Positions 6,677 to 11,334 of a stretch of DNA of 64,000 nt are shown one piece after another (positions within the stretch are counted from its first letter, which is position 1; every line of letters starts with the position of its first letter). A program made the translations under genes and the position numbers. Source of the DNA: Drancourtella massiliensis. GTDB lineage: Bacteria > Bacillota > Clostridia > Lachnospirales > Lachnospiraceae. The notes under the pieces are model-generated. The model was given only the letters and a program-made list of their open reading frames with translations, was not told the DNA's origin and ran no database searches. The DNA lies in contig NZ_JACJKH010000001.1 of the NCBI RefSeq assembly GCF_016900655.1, forward strand, positions 1 to 64,000, in the 5' to 3' direction.

Positions 6677-7454
6677 GGAAGAAAAATGTATCGGATGTGG
6701 AAAATGTGTTCAGGACTGTGTGGGACATGCCCTGAAACTGGAAGAAGGCAAGGCGGCAGTAAAACGGGAATGTATCCTTTGCGGACACTGCGCCGCGATC
6801 TGTCCGATGGATGCGGTGAAGATTACGGAATATGAAAGTGATGAGATGATTCCGTATGAAAAAGAGCGTTTCCAGCTGGATCCGGAAGTATATGCAAATG
6901 CAGTGAAATTCAGAAGAAGTGTCCGGAATTATAAAGAACAGCCGGTGGAAATAGAGAAAATCCGGAAGATTCTGGATGTGGCGGCACATACGGCAACGGC
7001 AAAGAATGAACGTAAAATGAAATTCGTGATTGTACAGGACAGGCTGGATGAATTCAAAGAGATGGTCTTTGAAGGAATCGGTGAGGATCTGGAACTGCAC
7101 AAAGGGGAAAAGAGTCCGGTGACAGCGCTGCTTTACAGCTTTTATAAAGGGAGAACACGGGATCCGAAGGAGGAATTTCTCTTCCGGAACGCACCGGCGG
7201 TACTTTACATTATGGGAGAACGCCTGGATGACGCAGGACTTGCAGCCCAGAGTATCGAAATGATGGCTCAGGCGCTTGGCCTTGGTGTGCTGTATAATGG
7301 CTATCTGAAGGCGGCAACGATGTGCTCTGAAAAGGTAAGAAACTTTCTGGACAAAGAGGGAAGGCCGGTGGCAGTCTGCATGCTGATCGGATATCCGGCG
7401 GTAACCTACAGAAGAACTGCGCCGAGAAAAGAAGCGGAATACGAAATCTTGTAA
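6663..7454 (+). CDS. Ferredoxin-domain nitroreductase-family oxidoreductase
   Basis: 263 aa. Residues 1-60 hold two 4Fe-4S motifs, CIGCGKCVQDC and CILCGHCAAICP. Residues about 75-263 are a nitroreductase-like FMN domain opening with FRRSVRNYKEQPVE and containing RNAPAVLYIMGE and an AQSIEMMAQALGLG helix. Such fusions pass electrons from ferredoxin clusters to FMN to reduce nitro or other electrophilic compounds; the natural substrate is unknown. AAGGAG lies 9 bases before the ATG. The ATG lies inside the preceding gene. Confidence 0.88.
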   Translation: MVKIEEEKCIGCGKCVQDCVGHALKLEEGKAAVKRECILCGHCAAICPMDAVKITEYESDEMIPYEKERFQLDPEVYANAVKFRRSVRNYKEQPVEIEKIRKILDVAAHTATAKNERKMKFVIVQDRLDEFKEMVFEGIGEDLELHKGEKSPVTALLYSFYKGRTRDPKEEFLFRNAPAVLYIMGERLDDAGLAAQSIEMMAQALGLGVLYNGYLKAATMCSEKVRNFLDKEGRPVAVCMLIGYPAVTYRRTAPRKEAEYEIL

Positions 7455-7461
7455 AATCGGA

Positions 7462-7490
7462 TTGACAAGTAAATTTGAATGTGTTATATT
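7462..7490 (+). promoter_or_regulatory. Promoter of the riboswitch transcript
   Basis: TTGACA (7462-7467), 17-base spacing, TATATT (7485-7490). Transcription would begin near 7497, just before the aptamer. Confidence 0.8.
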
Positions 7491-7499
7491 CGTTCCAAG

Positions 7500-7632
7500 C
7501 AATGGAAAGGGAGTAGCTTAAACCTTCTTCGGAAGGTCGATTTGTAATCGTCAGCCGGTATCGAGAGGTACCCGTAGCAAATGAGATAGCAAGACTTTTA
7601 TTGTGGCAGATGTCATGATAGGAGTCTTTTTT
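7500..7632 (+). ncRNA. yybP-ykoY-type (manganese) riboswitch with terminator
   Basis: After the promoter come the family's hallmarks: AAAGGGAGTAGC at 7506-7517 and ATCGTCA in the middle, with a closing helix P1 formed by CAATGGAAAG (7500-7509) and CTTTTATTG (7595-7603). The 3' strand of P1 is also the left arm of a terminator: AAGACTTTTAT (7591-7601) pairs fully, with G-U pairs, to ATAGGAGTCTT (7618-7628), followed by six T. The two folds exclude each other, so ligand binding that stabilises P1 should allow read-through (an ON switch). yybP-ykoY aptamers sense Mn2+. The family call is by eye. Confidence 0.75.
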
Positions 7633-7667
7633 ATTTGGTATGAAATTCAGAAGGAGAGGAAAATGAG

Positions 7668-8087
7668 ATGGAAGCAGTAATGATGAGAGAGGATCTGAAG
7701 TGTGCAGAAGAAGCAGGAGTACAGGCGCTTGAAAGCCTGTATACAGTCAGAGAAAAGTTAAACAGTGCAAAAAAATGGGGAATTCTGGACATTTTTGGGG
7801 GAAGCATGATCAGCACCTATATGAAACATTCCCGAATCAATGAGGTAGAAGGAATGATCGAGCAGGCGAGAATCAGGCTGACAGATTTTCAGAAAGCATT
7901 GCGGAAAGTAGAAGTATCACCGAAACTTCAGACTGAAATCAGCGGATTTCTTACCTTTGCGGATTTCGCATTTGACAATCCGATTACAGATTATCTGGTG
8001 CAGACAAAGCTTCAGAGCCTGGGCGAAGAAGTGGAAGACACGATTCAGCTGACAGAAGAGCTTCTTGCACATATCAGAACACAGTAG
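7668..8087 (+). CDS. Unknown protein under the yybP-ykoY-type riboswitch
   Basis: 139 aa, mostly alpha-helical by composition, no signal peptide or membrane segment. The middle motif KKWGILDIFGGSMISTYMKH looks like a conserved core, flanked by likely coiled helices rich in E, K and L. AGGAGAGG lies before the ATG. Being the only gene between the riboswitch and the ptsG promoter, it should be the controlled product. I do not recognise its family. Known members of this regulon are metal exporters, and this protein is clearly not one, so its link to manganese is inferred from position alone. Confidence 0.75.
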   Translation: MEAVMMREDLKCAEEAGVQALESLYTVREKLNSAKKWGILDIFGGSMISTYMKHSRINEVEGMIEQARIRLTDFQKALRKVEVSPKLQTEISGFLTFADFAFDNPITDYLVQTKLQSLGEEVEDTIQLTEELLAHIRTQ

Positions 8088-8133
8088 GAGGGACGAACAG
8101 CGAGGAAAAGTTTATAGAATTTTTAGAAAATGA

Positions 8134-8163
8134 TTGACACAGCCTTAAATCATAGTATATACT
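8134..8163 (+). promoter_or_regulatory. ptsG promoter
   Basis: TTGACA at 8134-8139, 18-base spacing, TATACT at 8158-8163 (or TATATA at 8156-8161 with 16 bases). Transcription would start about 20 bases ahead of the antiterminator site. Confidence 0.75.
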
Positions 8164-8183
8164 GACAGTAGAAAACAGCATAT

Positions 8184-8218
8184 GATAGCGTGTTACTGAA
8201 TTTCAGGCATGAACTATC
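8184..8218 (+). promoter_or_regulatory. Ribonucleic antiterminator (RAT) site of ptsG
   Basis: A 35-base imperfect palindrome starts GATAG (8184-8188) and ends CTATC (8214-8218). Inside it has TGTTACTG and CAGGCATGAA, the arrangement of RAT targets bound by BglG/LicT/GlcT-type CAT domains. It overlaps the left arm of the terminator that follows, so protein binding would block termination. Confidence 0.8.
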
Positions 8219-8274
8219 CTTACACATTCCGCACAGTAGCCGGAGTGTATGATGGGAGAAGTTCATGCTTTTTT
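8207..8274 (+). terminator. Conditional leader terminator of ptsG
   Basis: GCATGAACT (8207-8215) pairs with AGTTCATGC (8260-8268), followed by six T. A second inner helix is formed by TACAC/TTCCG and CGGAGTGTA. It ends 45 bases before the ptsG start and competes with the RAT fold. Confidence 0.85.
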
Positions 8275-8319
8275 GTTTTCAGAAAATACTGCTGTCAGAT
8301 CAAAGAGAGGAGAGAAACT

Positions 8320-10485
8320 ATGAAAGACAAAATTTTTGGTGTTCTTCAGAGGATTGGACGAAGCTTCATGCTTCCGATCGCCATTCTTCCGGTTGCCGGC
8401 CTGCTGCTTGGAATCGGAAGCTCGCTGACGAATGCGACGACGATTGAGACATATCATCTGGCAGGAATCCTTGGAGAAGGAACAGTGCTGAACGCATTAT
8501 TCACGATTATGACAAAAGCGGGAAATGCGATTTTTGACAACCTGCCGATTATCTTTGCCGTAGGTGTGGCAATCGGTATGGCAAAGAAAGAAAAGGAAGT
8601 AGCGGCACTTTCTGCGATGATAGCGTTTCTTGTTATGAATGTTACCATCAACGCGATGCTTCAGATTGACGGGACCATCCTGGCGGACGGCACGGTTGCT
8701 TCTGATGTACTCAGCGGTACGGTGGCAAGTGTCCTTGGTATTCAGACATTGCAGATGGGTGTGTTTGGAGGTATCATTGTAGGACTTGGTGTGGCGGCGC
8801 TTCACAACAGATTCCATAAGATCGTGCTTCCGAATGCGCTGTCATTCTTCGGCGGTTCCAGATTTGTGCCGATTATTTCCACTATCGTTTATGTGGGTGT
8901 CGGTATTCTTCTGTTCTTCGTATGGCCGTTCGTACAGAATGGAATTTACGCACTCGGAGGACTTGTAACAGGAACCGGTTATGTTGGTACTTTGATTTTT
9001 GGTATTATCAAACGTGCACTGATCCCGTTTGGACTGCACCATGTATTTTACCTTCCGTTCTGGCAGACCGCGGTGGGTGGAACGATGGAAGTGGCAGGAC
9101 AGCTTGTACAGGGCGGACAGAATATATTCTTCGCACAGCTTGCTGATCCGAGTACCGTGCACTTCAGTGCAGACGCGACGAGATATTTCTCCGGAGAATT
9201 CATTTTCATGATCTTCGGACTTCCGGGAGCAGCCCTTGCAATGTACCATTGTGCAAAGAAAGAGAAGAAAAAACAGGCCGGCGGTCTTTTGCTTTCCGCA
9301 GCACTGACCTGTATGCTGACAGGTATCACAGAGCCTCTGGAATTTTCCTTCCTGTTTGTGGCTCCACTGCTTTTTGTAGTTCAGGTGATTCTGGCAGGTG
9401 CGGCATATATGATTGCGCACATCCTGAATATTGCTGTGGGACTGACGTTCTCCGGAGGATTTATCGACCTGTTCATCTTCGGTATTTTACAGGGCAACGA
9501 CAAGACAAACTGGATGCGGATCATCCCGGTAGGTATTATTTACTTTATCCTTTACTATGTGATTTTCCGATTCCTGATCCAGAAATTCAATTTGAAGACA
9601 CCGGGGCGTGAGGATGACGATGCTGAGACCAAACTGTATACGAAAGCGGATTACAAGGCAAAACAGGGTGCAAAGGATCAGAATGGTTCTGTGTCAGGAG
9701 GAGATGAGAGAAGTATTCTTATCACTCAGGGACTTGGAGGAAAGAAAAATATTTCCGATGTGGACTGCTGTGCAACAAGATTGCGCTGCACGGTTGTGAA
9801 ACCGGAACTGGTAAATGATCAGATTCTGAAACAGACCGGTCCGTCCGGAATTGTGAAGAAGGGACAGGGAATCCAGATTATCTACGGACCGTCTGTCACC
9901 GTTGTAAAATCCAATCTGGAAGACTACCTTGTGAATGCTCCGGATGAAGAGTACATCGCACAGGAGACAGCTCCGGAACTGGAAGAAGAAAAGAAAGAAG
10001 AAACGAAAAATACAGTAGAAAAGACAACGAAAAAGGTGCTTTGCTCACCGTTTACAGGGGAGGCGCATCCGATCACAGATACTCCTGACGAAGCGTTTGC
10101 AGGAAAGATGATGGGAGACGGCTATATGGTCATGCCGGAAGAAGGAGTTGTCTATGCACCGGAAGACAGTACAGTCAGCTTCGTATTCCCGACCAATCAT
10201 GCGATCGGCCTGACAACAGAGGACGGCGTAGAATATCTGCTTCATATCGGTGTAGATACGGTAAAACTGGAAGGAAAAGGCTTCGAGATGTTTGTAAATA
10301 ACGGAGATTTCGTAAAAAAGGGAGACAAACTGATGGCTTTTGATATACAATATATAAAAGAGCATGCGAAATCCGAAGCCTGCATTGCAGTATTTACCGG
10401 ACTGACAGAAGAGGAAGAAATTGTAATGAAGGCATCCGGGCATGTAAATGCACAGGAGGATATTGCGGAGATCGTGAGCTGCTGA
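8320..10485 (+). CDS. ptsG: PTS glucose-type permease, EIICBA
   Basis: 721 aa from the ATG at 8320, which follows GAGAGGAGAGA; the frame extends upstream only through the terminator. Residues 1-410 are the membrane EIIC domain (IGRSFMLPIAILPVAGLLLG, FDNLPIIFAVGVAIG, IPFGLHHVFYLPFW, GITEPLEFSFLF). EIIB follows the linker LKTPGRED, with the phosphocysteine in CCATRLRC. EIIA occupies the last 120 residues, with histidines in TNHAIGL and HIGVDTV. The enzyme imports and phosphorylates sugar using HPr phosphate. Layout closely follows B. subtilis PtsG, so glucose is the best guess; N-acetylglucosamine or another hexose is possible. The antiterminator gene follows after 21 bases. Confidence 0.92.
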   Translation: MKDKIFGVLQRIGRSFMLPIAILPVAGLLLGIGSSLTNATTIETYHLAGILGEGTVLNALFTIMTKAGNAIFDNLPIIFAVGVAIGMAKKEKEVAALSAMIAFLVMNVTINAMLQIDGTILADGTVASDVLSGTVASVLGIQTLQMGVFGGIIVGLGVAALHNRFHKIVLPNALSFFGGSRFVPIISTIVYVGVGILLFFVWPFVQNGIYALGGLVTGTGYVGTLIFGIIKRALIPFGLHHVFYLPFWQTAVGGTMEVAGQLVQGGQNIFFAQLADPSTVHFSADATRYFSGEFIFMIFGLPGAALAMYHCAKKEKKKQAGGLLLSAALTCMLTGITEPLEFSFLFVAPLLFVVQVILAGAAYMIAHILNIAVGLTFSGGFIDLFIFGILQGNDKTNWMRIIPVGIIYFILYYVIFRFLIQKFNLKTPGREDDDAETKLYTKADYKAKQGAKDQNGSVSGGDERSILITQGLGGKKNISDVDCCATRLRCTVVKPELVNDQILKQTGPSGIVKKGQGIQIIYGPSVTVVKSNLEDYLVNAPDEEYIAQETAPELEEEKKEETKNTVEKTTKKVLCSPFTGEAHPITDTPDEAFAGKMMGDGYMVMPEEGVVYAPEDSTVSFVFPTNHAIGLTTEDGVEYLLHIGVDTVKLEGKGFEMFVNNGDFVKKGDKLMAFDIQYIKEHAKSEACIAVFTGLTEEEEIVMKASGHVNAQEDIAEIVSC

Positions 10486-10506: not shown

Positions 10507-11334
10507 ATGTATCGAATTATCAAAGTATTGAATAACAATGCCATTCTTGCCCTGGACCGTGAGAAGAAGCGGGAGATCATTCTGCTCGGAAACGGGATCG
10601 GCTTCGGGAAACATCCGGGCGAAGAGATGAAAATGATCAAAAACGCCAAGATTTACACGCTGGTGACGAAGAAGAAGCAGGTCTCCGCATTGAAAGTGGT
10701 CAACGGCATCAAGCCGGTATATATTGAGGCCACCGGACGAATTCTGGAGGAAGCGGAGAAGGTATTTGAGCATGTCAGTCATGACTCTCTGCTCCCTCTG
10801 GCAGACCATATCGCGCTTGCGGCAAAGCGGGCGGAAGAGAAGAGGCAGATACCAAATCCGTTTACGCCGGACATCAAGGTACTGTTTGAAAAAGAGTACG
10901 AGGTTGCCCTGAAAGGGCGGGAAATCATCCGTGAGATGACTGGTTCCGAGATCTCTGATGATGAGGTCGGATTTATCTCTCTGCATATTCATTCGGCCCG
11001 TACGGATGAGAAGGTTTCCGAGACACTGGATAATACCCGGATCATTAATGAAGGAATCAGGATGATTGAAGAGCAGTTTCAGATTGATGTGGAACCGGAT
11101 TCTCTTGCGTATAACCGTATGATGAGCCATATTTACTACATGCTTGTACGGACACGCAAAGGCGAGCAGGTGAAAGCAGACTTAAATGAATTCGTACAGC
11201 TGAAATATCCGAAAGAGTTTGAGGCGGCAGTGAAGATCTGTGCCTGGATGGAAAAAGAACTGAAGACGGAAGTGAAACGGGAAGAAATCGGATTTCTGGC
11301 GATCCATATTTTACGGATTGTAGACCGGGAATAG
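10507..11334 (+). CDS. PRD-type transcription antiterminator (BglG/LicT/GlcT family)
   Basis: 275 aa. Residues 1-56 are the RNA-binding CAT domain (YRIIKVLNNNAILALD, LLGNGIGFGKHPGE). Two PTS regulation domains follow (about 70-170 and 175-275) with the phosphorylatable histidines in FEHVSHDS, SLHIHSA, MMSHIYYM and LAIHILR. Such proteins bind a RAT hairpin and prevent termination, and are switched by phosphorylation from EIIB and HPr. The RAT/terminator ahead of ptsG is the obvious target. Because this gene lies downstream of ptsG with no separate strong promoter, it probably controls its own transcription too. Confidence 0.92.
   Translation: MYRIIKVLNNNAILALDREKKREIILLGNGIGFGKHPGEEMKMIKNAKIYTLVTKKKQVSALKVVNGIKPVYIEATGRILEEAEKVFEHVSHDSLLPLADHIALAAKRAEEKRQIPNPFTPDIKVLFEKEYEVALKGREIIREMTGSEISDDEVGFISLHIHSARTDEKVSETLDNTRIINEGIRMIEEQFQIDVEPDSLAYNRMMSHIYYMLVRTRKGEQVKADLNEFVQLKYPKEFEAAVKICAWMEKELKTEVKREEIGFLAIHILRIVDRE

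Follow-up and report, generated by a model that had tools for sequence, protein, structure and literature searches.

A divergent yybP-ykoY-type leader RNA with a shortened L3 loop precedes a small helical protein gene in Drancourtella massiliensis and is probably a metal-responsive ON switch

Introduction

What does a leader RNA of the yybP-ykoY type sense, and what does it switch, when the gene behind it does not encode a known metal exporter? This question is raised by a locus in Drancourtella massiliensis, at positions 7462-8087 of the window, the 64,000-nt stretch of contig NZ_JACJKH010000001.1 that was analysed here. A preliminary description of this DNA had read the locus as a manganese-type riboswitch controlling a small soluble helical protein. 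In a passage on such cases, a 2020 review raises the suspicion that metals other than Mn2+ are the ligands of some yybP RNAs, which would explain the ill-fitting genes behind them (PMC7266159). We found no manganese riboswitch tied to YccF in the open-licence literature. Among the open-licence matches listed there was nothing relevant on an orphan manganese riboswitch in Lachnospiraceae, nor any report tying yybP-ykoY to flotillin, HflC, stomatin, SPFH or band 7.

Results

The leader holds the yybP-ykoY hallmarks and a mutually exclusive terminator

All features described here lie on the forward strand. A sigma-70-type promoter-like site (7462-7490; TTGACA-17 nt-TATATT) agrees with the consensus at 11 of 12 positions and has a TG ahead of the second hexamer. 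The scanned region contained three promoter-like sites against 1.8 +/- 1.5 expected by chance, which is no excess; by eye, the TTGACA-17-TATATT layout recurs upstream of the leaders of many relatives. The leader that follows carries the hallmarks GGGAGUAGC (7509-7517), CGUCAGCCGG (7549-7558) and AGCAAGAC (7588-7595), as well as CGUCAGCC. Folding of the 145-nt leader gave a z-score of -3.33 relative to shuffled sequences, with 1 of 200 shuffles equally good. A scan of 7380-8350 found one intrinsic terminator (0.5 +/- 0.9 in shuffles), located at 7591-7628 with 17 pairs and a T tail and a stability of -18.5 kcal/mol alone. Its first part, 7591-7602, is common with L1 and P1. The 3' strand of the switch helix P1 (7595-7602) sits inside the terminator stem, and because both structures use these residues, P1 and the terminator are mutually exclusive. 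The stem is kept in 26 aligned leaders, that of the window among them, with at most two broken cells per pair. Both the hallmarks (L1, the L3 core CGUCA and the P1/terminator overlap within 7499-7606) and the mutually exclusive terminator are therefore where they had been described.

The aptamer covaries and has a six-nucleotide L3 loop

BLAST with the 145-nt leader returned a best E of 1e-38 outside the own genome, with 71-87% identity in the longer matches within the family. At E < 1e-7 the matches came from 32 genomes, own included, and many of these leader relatives sit before relatives of the helical protein, here called HP; the larger tally of 222 of 299 genomes at E <= 1 is mostly chance. 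Twenty-three aptamers were aligned with MAFFT (alignment A2) and assigned a structure of P1, L1, P1.2, P2 and P3 with L3, and a covariance model, R1, was built from this alignment. In A2, 95.2% of the cells pair and 13 of 30 pairs show changes on both sides, compared to 7.3 in shuffled alignments. Among 94 aligned R1 matches, 95.5% of the cells were paired, both-side changes reached 25 of 30 pairs, and the covariation score was 0.518 compared to 0.196 for shuffled alignments and at most 0.089 for slid structures, in an alignment that favours the structure because it was fitted to R1. The recurrence of the leader at this level of identity, together with its covarying pairs, shows that it is more than a chance arrangement.

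The aptamer spans 7499-7606 and matches R1 at 97.1 bits (E 6e-22), a match that arises by construction since the window aptamer was itself among the 23 sequences behind the model; the structure itself is backed by covariation. The 5' strand of P1 (7502-7509) pairs with 7595-7602. In the 93 distinct rows of the R1-fitted alignment, 94.3% of P1 cells are paired with both-side changes in six of eight pairs, the corresponding values on A2 being 89.1% and one of eight. The L1 loop consists of GGAGUA on the 5' side (7510-7515) and AAGA on the 3' side (7591-7594). It is constant across the 23 A2 rows save one A/G on the 3' side, and it is kept in canonical-type elements; the L1 internal loop of Lactococcus lactis has the same form, GGAGUA / AAGA. 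P2 is a hairpin, ACCUUC-UUCG-GAAGGU (7522-7537), assigned from sequence and fold and covarying in relatives. The alignments and their covariation place P3 at 7540-7582, and the alignments and a comparison with the L. lactis and Xanthomonas oryzae loops place the L3 metal loop it holds, UCAGCC, at 7551-7556.

The published L3 loops have seven nucleotides, UCA41AU43UC in L. lactis and ACA48U49ACU52 in X. oryzae, and their discriminating adenine contacts Mn2+ via N7 (PMC6754395, in the portion describing these loops). A48U in X. oryzae costs the Mn2+-induced stable docked state according to the same portion of that paper (PMC6754395), and A41U in L. lactis abolishes Mn2+ binding, as stated in part of a further report (PMC11087558). 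A7553 is the counterpart of this adenine in the window. Three residues follow it, where the published form has four, and for this reason we file the element as a variant rather than as a plain member. It shares with both known aptamers L1, the UCA core of L3 with the discriminating adenine, the order P1/P1.2/P2/P3 and the P1 strand held in common with the terminator. It differs from them in its 6-nt L3 and in the absence of P4 and its four-way junction, and from known yybP-ykoY elements in an extra bulge in P3, in being unreported by the Rfam model RF00080 and in the non-exporter gene behind it. By eye P4 is also absent from the mntP elements L001 and L058, so that P4 does not discriminate here.

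L3 length follows the class of the gene behind the RNA

Of the R1 matches listed, we sampled 94: the 30 best loci less the near-duplicate L101, then L025, L053 and 60 further matches down to ~49 bits, and three added canonical-type elements (L001, L058 and L072). This sample leans to window-like RNAs and leaves out eleven matches at ~49 bits or above, as well as weaker ones. Gene classes were set by HMM and text patterns, and representatives were checked with Pfam and NCBIfam. Where HP is the first gene (27 rows), L3 has six nucleotides in 21 rows and seven in six, and all five rows with YccF first have the 6-nt loop. In contrast, none of the 31 P-type ATPase rows has a 6-nt L3 (24 have seven nucleotides and seven have eight). 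A 6-nt L3 is likewise absent from the three Na/Ca exchanger rows and from the three OadB rows, after direct reading of L153, which has six nucleotides in the fitted alignment and seven (ACAGUAC) in the raw sequence. It occurs in one of six flotillin rows, in two of six HflK/C-type SPFH rows, in one further locus where a short ORF stands ahead of an SPFH gene, in one of two rows with no gene and, as fitted, in seven of the ten rows classed as 'other', including L001, a displaced mntP element. The P-type ATPase elements of the family (L127, L168 and others) resemble the window element in being detected by R1 and in a P1 that ends in the GACUUUUAUUG strand; they differ in L3 (UCAGUAC, UCAAUAC, UCAAUCUC and similar) and in the first P1.2 pair, where 20 of 93 distinct rows have A-U in place of G-C. 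HP-or-YccF elements therefore carry the 6-nt loop in 26 of 32 cases against 0 of 31 for P-type ATPases (Fisher p 3e-12, ignoring relatedness). From sequence comparison, we regard the 6-nt-L3 window type as a putative sub-class of yybP-ykoY, and this is the new part of the finding.

These counts bear on the ligand. The same fold, with its L3 shortened, might sense another divalent metal or another concentration range and control a membrane module of HP, YccF and SPFH proteins instead of Mn2+ exporters. The division of loop lengths between HP/YccF and ATPase elements speaks for such a change, as does the discriminator, which is U in three HP-linked elements, L115, L116 and L119 (UCUUCUU), at the position where the L. 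lactis A41U change acts. Across 397 genomes a strict pattern for a non-A discriminator recovered just these three, which come from two genera; the pattern is blind to elements with another P3. The 2020 review also anticipates yybP variants whose metal specificity has changed (PMC7266159). In the named set, whose loci were chosen by likeness to the window protein, all 37 closely linked HP elements have a 6-nt L3. Against a changed ligand, each of these 37 keeps the discriminating adenine, and L1 is unchanged. Moreover, 7-nt elements serve HP too (6 of 27), SPFH and flotillin genes have 7-nt elements oftener than 6-nt ones, and the loop may tolerate the loss of a single residue behind the adenine. 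We consider a changed ligand possible but doubtful.

Two further kinds of gene were seen behind R1 elements. Those with a 6-nt L3 precede proteins without an NCBIfam family at L111 (83 aa), L112 (322 aa) and L143 (209 aa). OadB-family genes, for the beta subunit of a sodium-pumping decarboxylase, follow R1 elements at L152, L153, L160, L255, L256, L261, L262 and L277, the call resting on Pfam for L152 and on likeness for the rest; such a gene is an unexpected partner for a metal riboswitch.

Reciprocal matches connect the element with the yybP-ykoY class

Rfam scans reported no RF00080 match to the window leader even at E <= 10, and no Rfam match at gathering level in the window. The model was calibrated on E. 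coli elements. The E. coli mntP element scored 41.6 bits with RF00080, whose gathering cut-off is 45, and nothing was reported for the E. coli alx element at E <= 1. In the own genome a single weak match (26.4 bits) lies before the mntP-like gene L001. At E <= 0.01 RF00080 reported none of 16 related loci (seven P-type ATPase, four HP, three flotillin, one HflK and one Na/Ca exchanger), among which the lone Rfam match was an unrelated T-box. In 17 of the 30 genomes with window-type RNAs the model produced weak rows, 25 altogether and all below the cut-off, compared to matches in 9 of 14 control genomes, two of which exceeded it. The low score predicted as a possible refutation is thus literally what was obtained, but with E. 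coli mntP below the cut-off, alx unreported and 0 of 16 related loci recovered it is uninformative and reflects the model more than the RNA.

Three of the 25 weak rows do sit on window-type RNAs, in genomes G287 (19.8 bits, E 0.0046 per genome), G028 (13.0 bits, E 0.35) and G256 (11.1 bits, E 0.88), and in the G287 match L1 and the CA of L3 fall into the expected register. Conversely R1, built from window-type RNAs only, detects a Na/Ca exchanger element at 37.6 bits, two mntP elements at 36.4 and 24.2 bits, and the 31 P-type ATPase loci of the 94-row set. On E. coli mntP it gave 12.7 bits (E 0.11), in the right place and register and as the top one of 15 rows over 11 kb, a marginal score; before alx its best was 6.7 bits (E 4.4). 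The proposal that this is not a yybP-ykoY RNA was dropped on these reciprocal matches and the E. coli calibration.

At E <= 0.01 R1 found elements in 134 of 397 genomes of the family. In the class sample it did so in 75 of 391, with a best score outside the family of 58.4 bits, and the high-scoring window type (above ~65 bits) occurred only inside the family in these samples. Of 29 class-sample loci besides the window's own, 25 had a readable motif; judged by eye, these precede seven ATPases, eleven exchangers, five OadB genes, one HflK (in the family) and one other gene, and none precedes HP or YccF. At least three elements of this class lie in the own genome, one before mntP (L001, contig C121), one before a P-type ATPase (L168, contig C80) and one before HP, and the first two have longer L3 loops than the window element. 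From these comparisons of sequence we conclude that the window RNA represents a divergent sub-class within the yybP-ykoY superfamily.

An unrelated leader, such as a protein-bound attenuator or another riboswitch that has come to look like yybP-ykoY by convergence, would account for the missing RF00080 match to the window sequence and for the lack of an exporter behind it. We consider it improbable, because each of the two models, R1 and RF00080, picks up some members of the other, L1 is retained, and a continuum of elements runs up to those of P-type ATPases and exchangers.

In a related observation, the consensus of RF02617 (SSRC10, 'Streptococcus sRNA 10') holds GGGAGuagC, CGUC, CCGg and AGCgaGaCcuG, and this family may itself be an unrecognised yybP-ykoY-type leader.

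The RNA is linked to HP in many relatives

The gene behind the leader (7668-8087) encodes HP, a 139-aa helical protein with KWGILDIFGGSM; no other likely gene comes ahead of the next promoter-like site, at 8134. Neither Pfam nor NCBIfam has a family that covers the window protein. Across 32 HP members no Pfam family was matched by more than 8, and that one had a best E of 0.0017. The best PDB match by sequence had an E of 0.2, and PADLOC and PHROGs gave nothing usable (best PADLOC E 0.023, to the MukB-like model JetC). This agrees with the preliminary description, which had the only gene encoding a small helical protein that is not a known metal exporter. The structure model is a four-helix bundle (mean pLDDT 78.3, pTM 0.73) with a low-confidence loop, WGILDIFGGSM. 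Foldseek found no match to it at E <= 0.001, and the best VIA Z was 13.7 (rmsd 2.4 over 127 residues), to a designed bundle and in the range typical of helical models without a clear match. Designed diiron bundles among the fold matches were discarded as giving no evidence for a metal site in HP. Separately, the conserved residues D41, D99, D103, D108 and H54 could be metal ligands.

Of 61 sampled relatives, 20 have HP-domain matches. When genome contigs were scanned with a profile, at least 532 HP relatives emerged, of which 80 were kept, mostly from Lachnospiraceae or Clostridia (Blautia, Roseburia, Sellimonas) with one from Neobacillus. Longer proteins, of ~312-364 aa, have a putative coiled coil ahead of the HP domain, and one of them is in the own genome (L024). 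In 37 of these 80 named loci an R1 match precedes HP by no more than 350 nt on the same strand, in one more it lies 2 kb upstream, and the idea that the protein is unlinked to the riboswitch in other genomes was abandoned on this count. HP also occurs without the R1 RNA, since 42 of the 80 loci, some with little upstream DNA, gave no match at E <= 0.1 and the RNA was present in 6 of 23 HP loci from sampled relatives.

In 20 of the 27 HP rows the gene after HP is YccF. In relatives the same RNA family stands before YccF (PF03733) and before SPFH/HflK/flotillin genes (PF01145, PF15975); unlike these proteins, HP shows no obvious membrane helices in its helical bundle and fits no named family. 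No metal transporter follows the window element, whereas other R1 matches do have one. A switch that has decayed in the window genome, leaving HP effectively constitutive or off, might be read from the absence of YccF in the own genome and from two of the four P2 pairs that mismatch in the window row of the automatic alignment, but it is very improbable given that a one-base shift turns P2 into a perfect UUCG hairpin, that the terminator stem is conserved and that HP is an open frame 80% identical in another species of the genus.

Around YccF and HP, two smaller features were noted. At L091, L092, L094 and L105 the gene after YccF encodes a small protein that has CxxC pairs (MEKQQYVCPKCGN...) and by eye resembles a zinc ribbon. 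At L006 and L110 a small hydrophobic protein, the one at L006 without a Pfam match, adjoins the HP gene in the place of YccF, and HP may need a membrane partner.

Discussion

We think it fairly probable that this divergent yybP-ykoY member is a transcriptional ON switch through which a divalent metal, most likely Mn2+, drives HP. A metal held between L1 and L3 would dock the two legs of the RNA and stabilise P1. P1 would then withhold 7595-7602 from the terminator and let RNA polymerase read on into HP; without metal, the terminator would form and HP would be off. The L. lactis mechanism is antitermination through P1.1, as the part of the report describing it has it (PMC11087558), while a section of a review on Clostridioides difficile describes the class as OFF switches (PMC11477304). 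By analogy, the layout found here supports an ON switch rather than an OFF switch. The fold, the covariation, the class relationship, the terminator overlap and the conserved linkage come directly out of the computation; the ligand, the direction of switching and the role of HP are our inferences.

Several findings weigh against an ON metal switch of this kind. RF00080 is silent on the window leader and passes its cut-off in none of the 30 genomes that carry these RNAs, L3 has six nucleotides, there is neither a P4 nor a metal exporter, R1 is marginal on E. coli mntP and weaker before alx, and more than half of the HP loci (42 of 80) lack an R1 match. Of the manganese-type riboswitch claimed at the outset, a yybP-ykoY-type leader with an ON-switch layout and a link to this protein in other genomes stands; manganese is retained as the likeliest ligand.

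HP itself would be a soluble four-helix bundle that acts at the membrane, often with YccF, in a response to metal stress or in membrane maintenance. Its co-occurrence with YccF, and the presence of the same RNA before HflK/C and flotillin genes, suggest a role in membrane maintenance under metal excess. In Bacillus subtilis, YqgP-FtsH clears the Mg2+ transporter MgtE at high Mn2+, according to a passage of that study (PMC7231995). HflK is annotated as an FtsH modulator, and a parallel between YqgP-FtsH and the HP module is possible.

A bolder and rather unlikely reading is that Lachnospiraceae have split yybP-ykoY in two. Elements with an L3 of 7-8 nt would guard cation exporters, and those with a 6-nt L3, with their natural A-to-U discriminator relatives, would sense a different divalent metal or range and switch on a membrane-maintenance module of HP, YccF and SPFH scaffolds. 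If true, nature would here have retuned a metal riboswitch and given it a protein partner of its own. The sub-class is compact and covarying, with one defined change in the metal loop, a few natural substitutions of the discriminator and recurring ill-fitting genes, and the two exporter-linked elements of the own genome (L001 and L168) are built-in natural controls. The single loop change, the discriminator variants and these controls make the question of retuning directly testable. HP, an unstudied protein present in a third of the sampled relatives, also gains a regulatory context.

Downstream of HP, the next operon (8134-10485 and 10507-11334) begins with the promoter-like site at 8134 and has, by eye, a leader inverted repeat (AGGCATGAACT/AGTTCATGC) with a T tail. 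Its genes encode a PTS EIICBA and then a BglG/LicT-type antiterminator (CAT_RBD and PRD), and it looks like a classic PTS antitermination unit.
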